64,000 bases of DNA from positions 1-64,000 of the forward strand of contig JAHEBL010000008.1 of the NCBI GenBank assembly GCA_024642265.1, written 5' to 3'. Below the pieces are notes generated by a model. The model was not told the DNA's origin, ran no database searches, and was given only the letters and a program-made list of their open reading frames with translations. The DNA comes from Haliea sp. Lineage in GTDB: Bacteria; Pseudomonadota; Gammaproteobacteria; Pseudomonadales; Halieaceae. The translations under genes and the position numbers were made by a program. Shown piece by piece: positions 1 through 6,154 of this stretch; the first letter of the stretch is position 1, and every line of letters starts with the position of its first letter.

Positions 1-36
1 GCAGGCACAACAAAGCCCACGGCTTGAGCACGGTAT

Positions 37-2556
37 TCAGCGCTCGATCTCCAGTTTTAACAGGGTCCAGCTGTTATAGCCGTGGTTGTGCAGGTGAAAT
101 TCCACCGCGCTGCCCGCGGGGGCGTCAAAGTCCAGCGGGATACGCAGGTCGTAGATGTTCGCCTCGGTGGGAATCGCCACATCAGCCTGCCAGACGAGCT
201 TGCCGGCGACCGTGACTGCCACGTGGGCAACCGCGGGCTGCTCGAACGCCAGTGCGGCATGCCACAGCACCAGGTGCAACGAGTCTCCCGCCTTTACGGC
301 AGCGAGGCTGGGCTGGGCGAGGGACAGGTAATTGCAGTAGCCGGTTTCGACTTCCAGCGCCCCGTCCTCGTCGTACCAGCTGTTGGATGGGCACTGCACA
401 TCCGCGGGGCGGTGCCCGGCCAGACTGTCGGTGGCGGAGCCCTGTTCGCTCCAGTCCTCGACATCCACCAGGCTGAGGCTCTCCTTCGCGGCAGTTTCAA
501 CCACCTCGAACTCCACCTCGTGTTCGATCCCCAGGGCATGGTGGTCTGAACCGCGCAGGCTCACCCGCAGGGAGTGGACACCGGGCTCGATCTCCTCAGG
601 CAGCTGGTAGAAGTAGCTGCTGTCCCAGGCCGTGAGGTGCTCCGCGCTGTCGTCGTCAGTGTCAAGATAAACATGGTAGTGACCTTCGAAGACCTGGCTA
701 TGGTCCGCACCTTCGGCAGCGTGTTCCGAATCCGCGTGCATGGACGCATCGGCGTGATCGTGCATGCCCGGGTCGTGCAGGGTGAAATTGTTCAGCAGCA
801 GTTTCAGCGGCACCAGTTCACCGGCGGCGAACTGCTGGCGATAGGCTGGCGTCTCGATGTACACCGTGGGAGCGTAGCTGTAGTCGTAACCCTCCCTGGG
901 TTTGGTCATCAACACGGACATCAGGCACATCTCGTCATCGGTATCATCGCCCCACTCAATGTATTGGGGGGTCTGCTGGACTCCGTTGACGATGTCCTGG
1001 TTGGCCTGGGTGTTGTCCCAGCGACACTCCAGCTTGAGCCTGTCGCCCGGGTTGATAAGCACTTCCCGCTCCAGCCGGTAGGTGCTCTGCCAGTTGAAAT
1101 CCCAGTCGCGGATGTCCAGCACTACCTGGTGGGTGCCATTCTTGCGTTGCAGGGTGACGCGGCCGCTCTTGCCCCGGGTATGCATGTGGATGAAGCCGTT
1201 GTGCAGCACCCATGGGTCGCGGGTTGTCAGCCCGGCCGGCTTACCGAAAATCAGTGCCAGGGCCGCTGTCGGCGCGGCAAATTCATGGTGGGCGTCGGGA
1301 TCCCCTGCGGCGATCGGCATGCCCCCGGGGCGCAGCCAGGCCGGATTGGGCAGCAGGAAGGAACTGGCGGGCAGTTCCACCTCGGGCGCAGTCTCGACCA
1401 GTATCAGTGACTGGTCAGGCTTGGGCTCCGCAACCAGGGTGTTGTAGTGCATTTGCACGACCATCACCGAGCCGGGAAGCACCACAATGCCGGTGCCCTC
1501 CGGTGGTGGCTCGCGCCCCGCCCCGGGCACCCAGCCACCGATCTGGCGCGGCAGCGGAGCACCATCAACGCCACCCATACCCAGGCAGTGCCAGCCCGGG
1601 TGGCCATCTTCACCGTCGGCGGCATAATAACTAGCGGCATCTTCCGGTGCGGCGATGGAAACGATGACGTGATGCACCTCGTCCTGCTGGTCGGGGATGA
1701 CATCCACCCCGGTGACATAAGAGGTCTCATCCAGCGGCCACTCGATCGCGAAGCAGCGGTGATCGTCCGGGCGCAGCACGGGGGTATAGGCCTGGGGCAG
1801 GGCCAGCCGCAGGTTATAGTCGCCAGTGTCCTTAATTTCTTTTTGCGGCGGCGCCACGTACTCCCCGGGATTGCCCTGGGCGAGGTCGCCCTGCAGCCAG
1901 TTGAGCAGGACATATTTCTGCTCGGGCGCCAGGGCCCGACTGTTGCTGAACGCGCTGTAGCCCTCGGTCGGGTGCCACGGTGGCATACTGCCGTTTTCCA
2001 CCGCGAAAGCCGCGGCGGACGCCACCGCCTTCACCTTGTCATAACTGTCCAGCGGGAAGGGTGCGATACCCCCTTCGACATGGCAGGTGACGCACTTGTC
2101 CTCGATAATGGCACGGGCGTCGGCGTGATAGGTAAAACCACCCGCCACCTGACGCAGGGGTTCCTGCGAGGGATCGCCCAGGGGCGCGCCCGCATTCAGC
2201 CAGTCCAGCAACAGGCCCGCATCGCCAGGCAACAGGTCGCTGTAGCCCTGCGGTGGCATGGTGTCGCCCTCCAGCACATAGATCATCGCCGAGCGCTTGG
2301 CGACCACCTGGCTGTGGGTTTCCAGTGGAAACGGCGCCACCCCGCCGTCGGTGTGGCAGGCCACGCAATAGCGCTCGATCAGCGGCCTCGCGGCGCTGTA
2401 CCAGGACACCGCCGGCGGCGGGTTATTCGTGGCGGAGGGCTCGCTATCCGTGTTGATACTCGTTGCAGAGCCACCACCCCCGCCGCCGCCACAGGCGGCC
2501 AGCAGAAGACAGGCGGGCATTGCTGCCCGGCGGATAAAAAACGTCAGGGGTCTCAT
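37..2556 (-). CDS. Dihaem lipoprotein with copper type II monooxygenase-like region
   Basis: An exported lipoprotein of about 839 residues. The signal peptide ends in LLAAC and is followed by a poly-glycine linker. Two c-type haem motifs, CVACH (near residue 64) and CVTCH (near 155), each precede a GGVAPFPL or GGIAPFPL repeat. Further on are HH (near 296), MHYN (near 369) and HMH (near 455), the spacing expected for the copper ligands of the dopamine-beta-hydroxylase/PHM fold. A His/Asp-rich stretch (about 589-615) may bind metal. I infer an outer-membrane or periplasmic redox enzyme in which haem passes electrons to copper; the substrate is unknown. The chosen ATG at 2556 is followed by a basic stretch and then the hydrophobic signal; an upstream in-frame start at 2586 is possible. 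It is divergent from fadBA. Confidence 0.8.
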
Positions 2557-2818: not shown

Positions 2819-4966
2819 ATGATCTATCAGAGTGACGCGCTCTCGGTGAAACGCCTGGACGGCGACATCGCCGAATTGAATTTCGACCGGCAGGGCGAAT
2901 CCGTCAATAAATTCGACCAGCAGACCGTGACCAACCTGACCGAGGCGCTGGACGCCCTGGAAGCCGAATCGGGCATCCGCGGGCTGCTCGTCACCAGCGG
3001 CAAACCGGTATTCATCGTCGGTGCGGATATCACCGAGTTCACCAGTTTGTTCGGCGCCGGCAAGGATGAAATCAAGCCCTTCACCGGCATCAACAACGCC
3101 AACTTCAATCGCCTGCAAAACCTGCCCTACCCCAGCTGCGCGGTGATCAATGGCGCTGCCATGGGCGGCGGCCTCGAGATCTGCCTGGCCTGTGACTTCC
3201 GGGTGATGAGTACTGCCGCTGTGATCGGTCTGCCGGAAACCAAGCTGGGCATCCTGCCGGGCTGGGGTGGCACAGTGCGTCTGCCACGTATCCTGGGTGT
3301 GGACGAGGCGGTCATGTGGATTGCCACCGGTGCGGAAAAGCGCGCCGATGACGCCCTCAAGGCCGGCGCGGTGGATGCGGTGGCAAGCCCGGAGCAGCTG
3401 CGCGATATCGCCCTGGCTACCCTGCAGGGCGGCGTTGCAGGCAAACTGGACTACGCAAATCGCCGCGCGGCCAAGAGCAGCCCCCTGCCCCTTAACGACA
3501 CCGAGGCCATGATGGCTTTCTTCACCATCAAGTCGATGGTGGCGCAACAGGCGGGCAAGAACTATCCGGCACCCGTCAAGGTCGTCGACGTGATCGAGAA
3601 AGCCCGCGGCATGAGCCTCGACGAAGCCCTGGACGTCGAGGCCGACGGCTTCGCCGAGCTGGCCACCACTCCTGTGGCGGCGGCGCTGGTCGGCGTGTTC
3701 CTGTCGGACCAGCTGCTGGGCAAGAAGGCCAAGGAGTGGGAAAAGAAAGCCAGCAAGAAGATCGAGCGCGCCGCCGTGCTCGGCGCCGGCATCATGGGCG
3801 GGGGTATTGCCTACCAGTCGTCGCTCAAGGGCGTACCCATCAAGATGAAGGACATCGCCCAGGCGGGCCTGGACCTCGGCCTCAACGAAGCCAACAAGCT
3901 GCTGGCCAAGCGGGTTGCCCGCGGCCGCATGAGCCCGGAGAAAATGGGCGAGGTACTGAACAATATCGACCCGACCCTGAGCTACGAGGGTTTTGAGAAT
4001 GTGGACATCGTGGTGGAAGCCGTGGTGGAAAACCCCAAGGTGAAGCACGCGGTACTGGCCGAGACCGAGAAACACATTCGCGAGGACGCAATACTTGCCT
4101 CTAACACCTCCACCATATCAATTACCTACCTGGCGGAAGCGCTGAAGCGGCCGGAAAACTTCTGCGGCATGCACTTCTTCAACCCGGTGCACGCCATGCC
4201 CCTGGTGGAAGTCATCCGGGGCGAGAAAAGCTCCGACGAGGCGATCGCCCGGACTGTGGCCTATGCCAACCGCATGGGCAAGAAAGCCGTTGTGGTCAAG
4301 GACTGCCCCGGCTTCCTCGTCAACCGGGTACTGTTCCCCTACTTCGACGGCTTCTCCAAGCTGGTCCGCGACGGCGCGGATTTCCAGGCGGTGGACAAGG
4401 TCATGGAGCGCTGGGGCTGGCCTATGGGCCCGGCCTACCTGATGGATGTGGTCGGCATAGACACCGGCGCCCACGCCGGGCAGGTCATGGCAGAGGGCTT
4501 CCCCGATCGCATGACCCTGGACTTCAAGACCGCCACCGAGGTGATGTTCGAAAACGAGCGCTACGGCCAGAAAAACGGCAAGGGCTTCTACGAGTACATT
4601 CCGGACAAGCGTGGCAAGCCGAAAAAGACGGTCTCTGAGGACGCCTACAAACTGATCGAGCCGGTATCGGCCAAGCGAGTCGAATTCGACCGCGAGGAGA
4701 TTATCGCCAGGATGATGCTGCCCATGGCGACGGAACTGGCCCGCTGCCTGGAAGACGGGATTGTCGGCACCCCGGCAGAGGCCGACCTGGCCCTGCTCTA
4801 CGGCATCGGCTTCCCCCCCTTCCGGGGCGGCGTATTCCGCTGGATGGACACCGTCGGCCTGGCCCATATTGCCGAGGCGTCAAAGAAATACGCGCACCTT
4901 GGCAAGACCTATGAACTGACCGAAGGCATGCAGGCCAAGCTGGCTGCCGGCGAAACCTACTATTAA
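2819..4966 (+). CDS. fadB: Fatty acid oxidation complex subunit alpha FadB
   Basis: Multifunctional enzyme of cytoplasmic beta-oxidation: enoyl-CoA hydratase, 3-hydroxyacyl-CoA dehydrogenase and associated isomerase activity. The N-terminal crotonase part shows GAAMGGGLE and [14 protein letters not shown], which carry the oxyanion hole and catalytic glutamates. The dehydrogenase begins with the NAD-binding GAGIMGGG (about residue 320), and HFFNPVH (about 451) supplies the catalytic histidine. The 715-residue length equals that of Pseudomonas FadB. The frame is open upstream of 2819, but ATG 2819 begins the family-typical MIYQ-type N-terminus and lies downstream of the promoter. fadA follows after 12 bases, so the two form one operon. 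Confidence 0.97.

Positions 4967-6154
<1,188 letters not shown>

Follow-up and report, generated by a model that had tools for sequence, protein, structure and literature searches.

A predicted PHM-like copper lipoprotein with fused cytochrome c domains in Haliea and its relatives in other bacterial phyla

Gene and domain architecture

The window analyzed here is a 64,000-nucleotide stretch of contig JAHEBL010000008.1 from Haliea sp. The gene studied lies on its minus strand between a stop codon at 37–39 and a first ATG at 2556, with an in-frame TTG 30 bases upstream of that ATG. It encodes an 839-aa protein with the following parts, given with the evidence for each and with the neighboring gene start:

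37..2556 (−): complete gene, putative dihaem, PHM-like copper lipoprotein, 839 aa (ORF and Pfam)
2491..2556 (−): signal peptide with lipobox LAAC, residues 1–22 (translation read by eye)
2182..2403 (−): haem c domain 1, residues 52–125, CxxCH 64–68, Met100 (PF13442 at residues 57–120)
1867..2139 (−): haem c domain 2, residues 140–230, CxxCH 155–159, Met191 (conserved ligands; second PF13442 stretch at E ≤ 0.1)
1342..1827 (−): PHM-like N-terminal jelly-roll, about residues 244–405, predicted CuH ligands H295, H296 and H370 (profile and model)
892..1341 (−): PHM-like C-terminal jelly-roll, about residues 406–555, predicted CuM ligands H457, H459 and M543 (PF03712 at residues 456–545)
487..873 (−): macroglobulin/Ig-like beta domain with His-rich loop, residues 562–690 (5a42, Z 8.8, 90 aligned)
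673..777 (−): acidic His-rich loop and GHYHVYLD motif, about residues 594–628 (sequence, alignment of relatives)
40..486 (−): C-terminal beta-sandwich, carbohydrate-binding-module-like, residues 691–839 (4d0q, Z 9.8; 1of3, Z 9.7)
1..31 (−): start of a TlpA-like thioredoxin gene (GTG first), cut by the contig end (overlap with contig C227)

From its lipobox (LAAC22, read by eye), the protein is predicted to be exported and lipid-anchored. An initial annotation, made from the DNA and its translations, had described two CxxCH sites, each followed by a GG[VI]APFPL repeat, together with HH, MHYN and HMH motifs and an acidic His-rich segment. All of these were located: the CxxCH sites at residues 64–68 and 155–159 with their repeats at 71 and 162, the three His motifs at 295, 369 and 457, and the His-rich segment at approximately 594–628. 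The surface anchoring that it assumed is, going by the lipobox, at most plausible. An NCBIfam scan of the protein returned no informative model, and the AlphaFold model has a mean pLDDT of 77.3.

Downstream of the copper core, the acidic His-rich loop is modeled with low confidence and differs in length among the eight close relatives aligned. The macroglobulin/Ig-like domain is weakly DUF4399-like in orthologue L021 (PF14347, E 0.0043, below cut-off), and a PF14347 scan of the window protein's own piece gave no match. Unrelated beta-sandwiches score nearly as high as 4d0q and 1of3 against the C-terminal beta-sandwich, and its carbohydrate-binding-like character is only a hint as to the substrate. 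Single-haem relatives such as L029, L030 and L046 end near the equivalent of residue 555 and thus lack the His-rich loop. TPR arrays follow the haem–copper core in five (L033, L035, L051, L054 and L065) of the 19 long relatives taken by choice for a Pfam scan.

A second Halieaceae family (L122:8593-11469 and L123:7686-10355) holds similar parts in permuted order, with a carbohydrate-binding-module-like domain near the front, a different PHM-like core, and a His-rich loop with a GHYHVY...DHHA domain. Its core carries HH, H, HTH and EMF motifs by eye, a Pfam scan gave no monooxygenase match, and an N-terminal CxxCH domain is present in L122 with none seen in L123. This permuted family and the window protein both have an acidic, His-rich loop adjoining a GHYHVY...DHHA motif.

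Copper ligands and the shared haem

Ligand conservation was assessed in an alignment of the window protein and 50 relatives (22–76% identical to it). Rows were included when their match ran from residue 150 or earlier to residue 515 or later, with seven chosen close relatives added; partial or haem-free ORFs, including L028, L069, L070 and L073–L075, were left out. The two profile checks suggested by the initial annotation diverged. PF03712 (Cu2_monoox_C) matched the window protein above its curated cut-off (34 bits against 23, E 2.5e-8), while PF01082 gave no match at E ≤ 1, and was found at E ≤ 0.1 in 18 of the 51 rows. The N-terminal jelly-roll assignment therefore rests on profile and structure matches. 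A PDB search with the single sequence gave nothing useful and the family profile made from the 51-row alignment alone produced matches, with PHM at 1.2e-21 and DBH at 2.5e-13.

In the profile alignment with PHM, VHH falls on VHH, HYN on HYG, HMH on HTH and DEMC on DEMC, which is in keeping with the earlier proposal that the motifs are spaced like copper ligands. Window residues H295/H296, H370, H457/H459 and M543 thus occupy the positions of PHM's HH, HYG, HTH and EMC. The EMC motif at 542–544, missing from the earlier motif list, supplies the sixth predicted copper ligand. H295, H370, H457, H459 and M543 occur in all 51 rows and H296 in 50. Absence of the PHM jelly-rolls from the predicted fold, or ligands that do not cluster, had been named as grounds for dismissal. 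Both jelly-rolls are predicted, as model residues 244–555 align with PHM (3mic) at Z 22.0 over 263 residues (3.5 Å) and with DBH (4zel) at Z 22.3 over 291 residues, and the profile alignment puts the ligands on those of PHM. The protein carries the complete PHM/DBH set of copper ligands, and copper is predicted from this set to occupy both sites.

Likeness to rat PHM covers the two-jelly-roll core and all six copper ligands at approximately 20% identity, whereas the bacterial protein is a lipoprotein with fused haem c domains. The equivalent of Gln170 is found in 47 of 51 rows and that of Gln272 in all 51, and the Cys293–Cys315 pair corresponds to window C511/C544, present in 8/8 close relatives and, across the whole alignment, in 15 and 24 of the 51 rows. 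In contrast, Arg240 and Tyr318, the substrate carboxylate anchors of PHM, are not kept in the bacterial family: the window protein has F455 and S547 there, and the Arg240 column holds F, I, L, A, Y or M in 42 of 51 rows. As these columns are not conserved, peptidyl-glycine appears unlikely as the substrate. DBH shares the same core fold, and set against it the window protein has additional haem c, macroglobulin-like and carbohydrate-binding-module-like domains. In the structural features compared, the protein fits the PHM/DBH superfamily, save for the PF01082 match that it lacks, and it is set apart by its predicted, covalently attached haem supply.

Both haem domains contain the class I c-type cytochrome motif of CxxCH plus a distal Met, the likely axial methionine being that of the MPP after each CxxCH (residues 100 and 191). 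PF13442 (Cytochrome_CBB3) matched the protein at 32.2 bits against a cut-off of 27 (E 1.4e-7). The model of haem domain 1 resembles PccH (4rlr; Z 7.4, 75 aligned, 2.0 Å) and that of domain 2 gave a weak fold match only (best Z ~2.6, 1aoq); a haem-region model that drew on 46 of the 51 rows had no Foldseek match at E ≤ 0.001. The genome also encodes CcmH and a DsbD-type protein, both of which are widespread (4/14 and 10/14 control genomes).

The description of a dihaem protein holds for the window protein itself, where both motifs stand, and fails for the wider family, in which only haem 2 is common. Two CxxCH motifs were observed in Halieaceae long forms only, namely group A (at least 60% identical to the window protein, or a fragment at 83%) and the group-B paralogues (44–47%), and the group-A orthologue L026 lacks haem 1 and retains the lipoprotein signal; haem 2 alone is thus widely shared. 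It is common to Planctomycetota, Acidobacteriota, Myxococcota, Verrucomicrobiota, Bacteroidota and Pseudomonadota, at a near-constant spacing from the HH motif. Its ligands C155, C158, H159 and M191 occur in 51 of 51 rows; because the rows were picked to span haem 2 and the core, these partly selected counts indicate that the ligands are kept where the domain is present, and not that the domain is always present. Homologues without haem do exist, comprising 6 of the 11 PF03712 ORFs of a Polyangium genome (in four of these, only the C-terminal half of the profile is matched), Nonomuraea L181 and L073, a 474-aa ORF without CxxCH. A plasmid search gave a single hit, distant and haem-free. The haem–copper fusion is therefore common and not universal.

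Distribution and gene neighbors

PF03712 is rare in Pseudomonadota, with matches in 2 of 398 sampled genomes, one of them the window's own. Within Halieaceae, the family of the window, 41 of 140 genomes match the protein, counting short and permuted relatives; the closest named relative is a Haliea MAG, and others are Halioglobus, Halieaceae and Gammaproteobacteria entries. In the Planctomycetota sample, 60 of 199 genomes carry PF03712 at E ≤ 0.001 (46 above the curated cut-off), which suggests an unrecognized oxygenase activity in this phylum, and all 30 family ORFs in the 28 best-scoring loci have a CxxCH 130–160 residues before HH. In a 70-row tree, rooted at its midpoint only, the Halieaceae long forms (groups A and B) form one starred clade (100/100), with the Halieaceae fragment L137 grouping with group B. 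This dihaem clade joins, at a starred fork (100/99), a mixed seven-row group that includes three Myxococcota and three Pseudomonadota and has weaker support of its own (87/72).

Redoxins recur beside or within these proteins. A redoxin domain lies in the same chain in 23 of the 30 ORFs from the 28 best-scoring Planctomycetota loci (the best scorers, not all matches), none of which contributed to the redoxin profile. Eleven sequences went into that profile, and five of these came from ORFs scored as fused in the first relative set, where the 43 of 49 ORFs holding CxxCH and HxH were considered. Of these 43, six had a fused redoxin (weak in one case), and nine others had one next to them on the same strand. 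Matches numbered nine in 124 kb of near flanks versus none in 385 kb of far flanks. The nine fused domains that were aligned keep one Cys and not a CxxC, which, judged from these residues, would sit poorly with plain thiol-based delivery of electrons. We rejected the idea that every member has a redoxin partner, as one is fused or adjacent in 15/43 only, and a single origin of the partnership is unsupported, the dihaem clade and the mixed seven-row group standing apart from the redoxin-fused forms.

In Haliea, the neighborhood continues on a second contig. Window positions 1–121 are identical to the last 121 bases of contig C227 from the same genome, placing the GTG start of the TlpA-like gene at window 31–29, 5 bases beyond the stop of the 839-aa gene. 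Contig C227 encodes this TlpA-like thioredoxin (WCGPC), a DUF4266 protein ending in CXC, a DUF3570 protein with two SGAS sites, and ApbE. The same gene order follows 12 of 12 close group-A orthologues with downstream sequence (G000, L021, L022, L023, L024, L025, L026, L027, L028, G036, G034 and the G002 fragment), so that the survey for co-occurring genes proposed earlier yields a set of likely partners. It follows none of six group-B paralogues, and the operon as a universal feature was accordingly rejected; a search of loci L029–L075 with a group-A DUF3570 profile was negative.

The four genes are those of the DUF3570/DUF4266/thioredoxin/ApbE flavinylation clusters described in the main text of PMC8238504, where DUF3570 is shown to be flavinylated and its role is left uncertain. 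With ApbE, two [ST]GA[ST] sites in DUF3570, a thioredoxin-like protein and a DUF4266 ending in CXC all present, flavinylation is predicted for the Haliea DUF3570 as well. Neither ‘monooxygenase’ nor ‘copper’ appears anywhere in the main text of that paper (PMC8238504). The module also stands without an 839-aa-type gene in Halieaceae genomes G008, G019, G022 (in two copies, one of which has just 418 bases of sequence before it), G023 and G015 (DUF4266 not detected), and thus is not dedicated to the monooxygenase-like gene. Since the module holding the TlpA gene of the dihaem form occurs alone in this way, that gene speaks less strongly for a redoxin partner than the fusions do.

Several smaller observations concern this neighborhood. 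In G019, a small one-CxxCH lipoprotein (L109:7999-8634 (−)) precedes the DUF3570 module and is perhaps a substitute client. The operon ApbE (L106:993-1997 (−) and L022:12278-13294) has no obvious signal peptide by eye, whereas its supposed target, DUF3570, would be an exported protein. On the other side of the gene, the divergent neighbors at window 2821–6154 (+) resemble, by eye, fadB/fadA-like genes of fatty-acid beta-oxidation. In L021, a fragment of the first of them adjoins the monooxygenase-like gene, and in L023–L025 the upstream sequence instead corresponds to window genes from ~6.2–12 kb (a DinG-like helicase and others).

Proposed electron supply to the dicopper site

The textbook examples of uncoupled dicopper enzymes, PHM and DBH, have been studied as ascorbate-dependent animal proteins, DBH using ascorbate. 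In haem c/copper fusion enzymes such as three-domain copper nitrite reductase, and in the cellobiose dehydrogenase/LPMO pair, electrons for the copper active site come from a haem domain; the copper folds of these systems are unrelated to that of the window protein. Relatives in several phyla keep both the inner haem and the copper ligands, suggesting that haem replaces vitamin C as the donor. We consider it probable that the window protein is an extracytoplasmic, lipid-anchored dicopper monooxygenase of the PHM/DBH fold in which a fused cytochrome c domain takes the role of ascorbate. An extracytoplasmic donor would reduce the haem or haems, and haem 2 would hand single electrons, one after another, on to CuH (H295/H296/H370). 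CuM (H457/H459/M543) would bind O2 and hydroxylate a C–H bond of an exported or environmental substrate. The extra N-terminal haem of Halieaceae may serve as a longer entry wire, and the TlpA/DUF4266/DUF3570/ApbE operon is the best candidate for the source of reducing power, if it is not a maturation kit instead.

Electrons could also run in the opposite direction, from a substrate oxidized at a copper-site oxidase or dehydrogenase through the haems to the flavin protein and the respiratory chain. Cytochrome c domains on periplasmic enzymes such as quinohaemoproteins and flavocytochromes are often electron exits; however, PHM chemistry is electron-consuming, and the full PHM ligand set is kept here, CuM methionine included. 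This reverse flow thus seems unlikely to us, even though PMC8238504 describes the flavin module as an electron-transfer system of uncertain function. The haem might instead be structural or a redox sensor, with the copper core, like the animal enzymes, drawing on a small-molecule reductant. Haem-free relatives imply that the core can work without a fused haem, and haem 1 is missing from L026, yet over the 51 rows the haem-2 ligands match those of copper in invariance and the sequence spacing between haem 2 and HH hardly varies, and we rate this arrangement as rather improbable. Least credible, and very improbable overall, is a non-catalytic lipoprotein for copper storage or sensing, in which the TlpA-like protein and the His-rich loop would handle copper. 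The loop next to GHYHVY...DHHA, shared with the permuted family, would suit such a function, but a storage protein has no need of a dicopper geometry or of a CuM methionine, both of which are retained, and several single-haem relatives (L029, L030 and L046) do without the loop.

If the haem does supply the dicopper site, single-electron delivery to CuH could be tracked by the color change of the haem, a readout that would bear on the debated electron transfer from CuH to CuM. A broader and distinctly more tentative proposal is that a widespread bacterial branch of PHM/DBH carries its own supply, from haem c to CuH with a redoxin fused or alongside, and that in Halieaceae this becomes an extracytoplasmic thiol-to-flavin-to-haem-to-dicopper chain, with the lipoprotein as the first client of a covalently flavinylated DUF3570. 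The DUF3570 flavinylation module, which PMC8238504 leaves with an uncertain function, would thereby gain a definite client. Among the open-access titles and abstract openings searched, no description of a bacterial haem–PHM fusion was found. The Polyangium genome G557, with five PF03712 ORFs that contain CxxCH and six that do not (L158, L163, L166, L169, L171, L172, L174, L176 and L178–L180), provides a natural comparison set.
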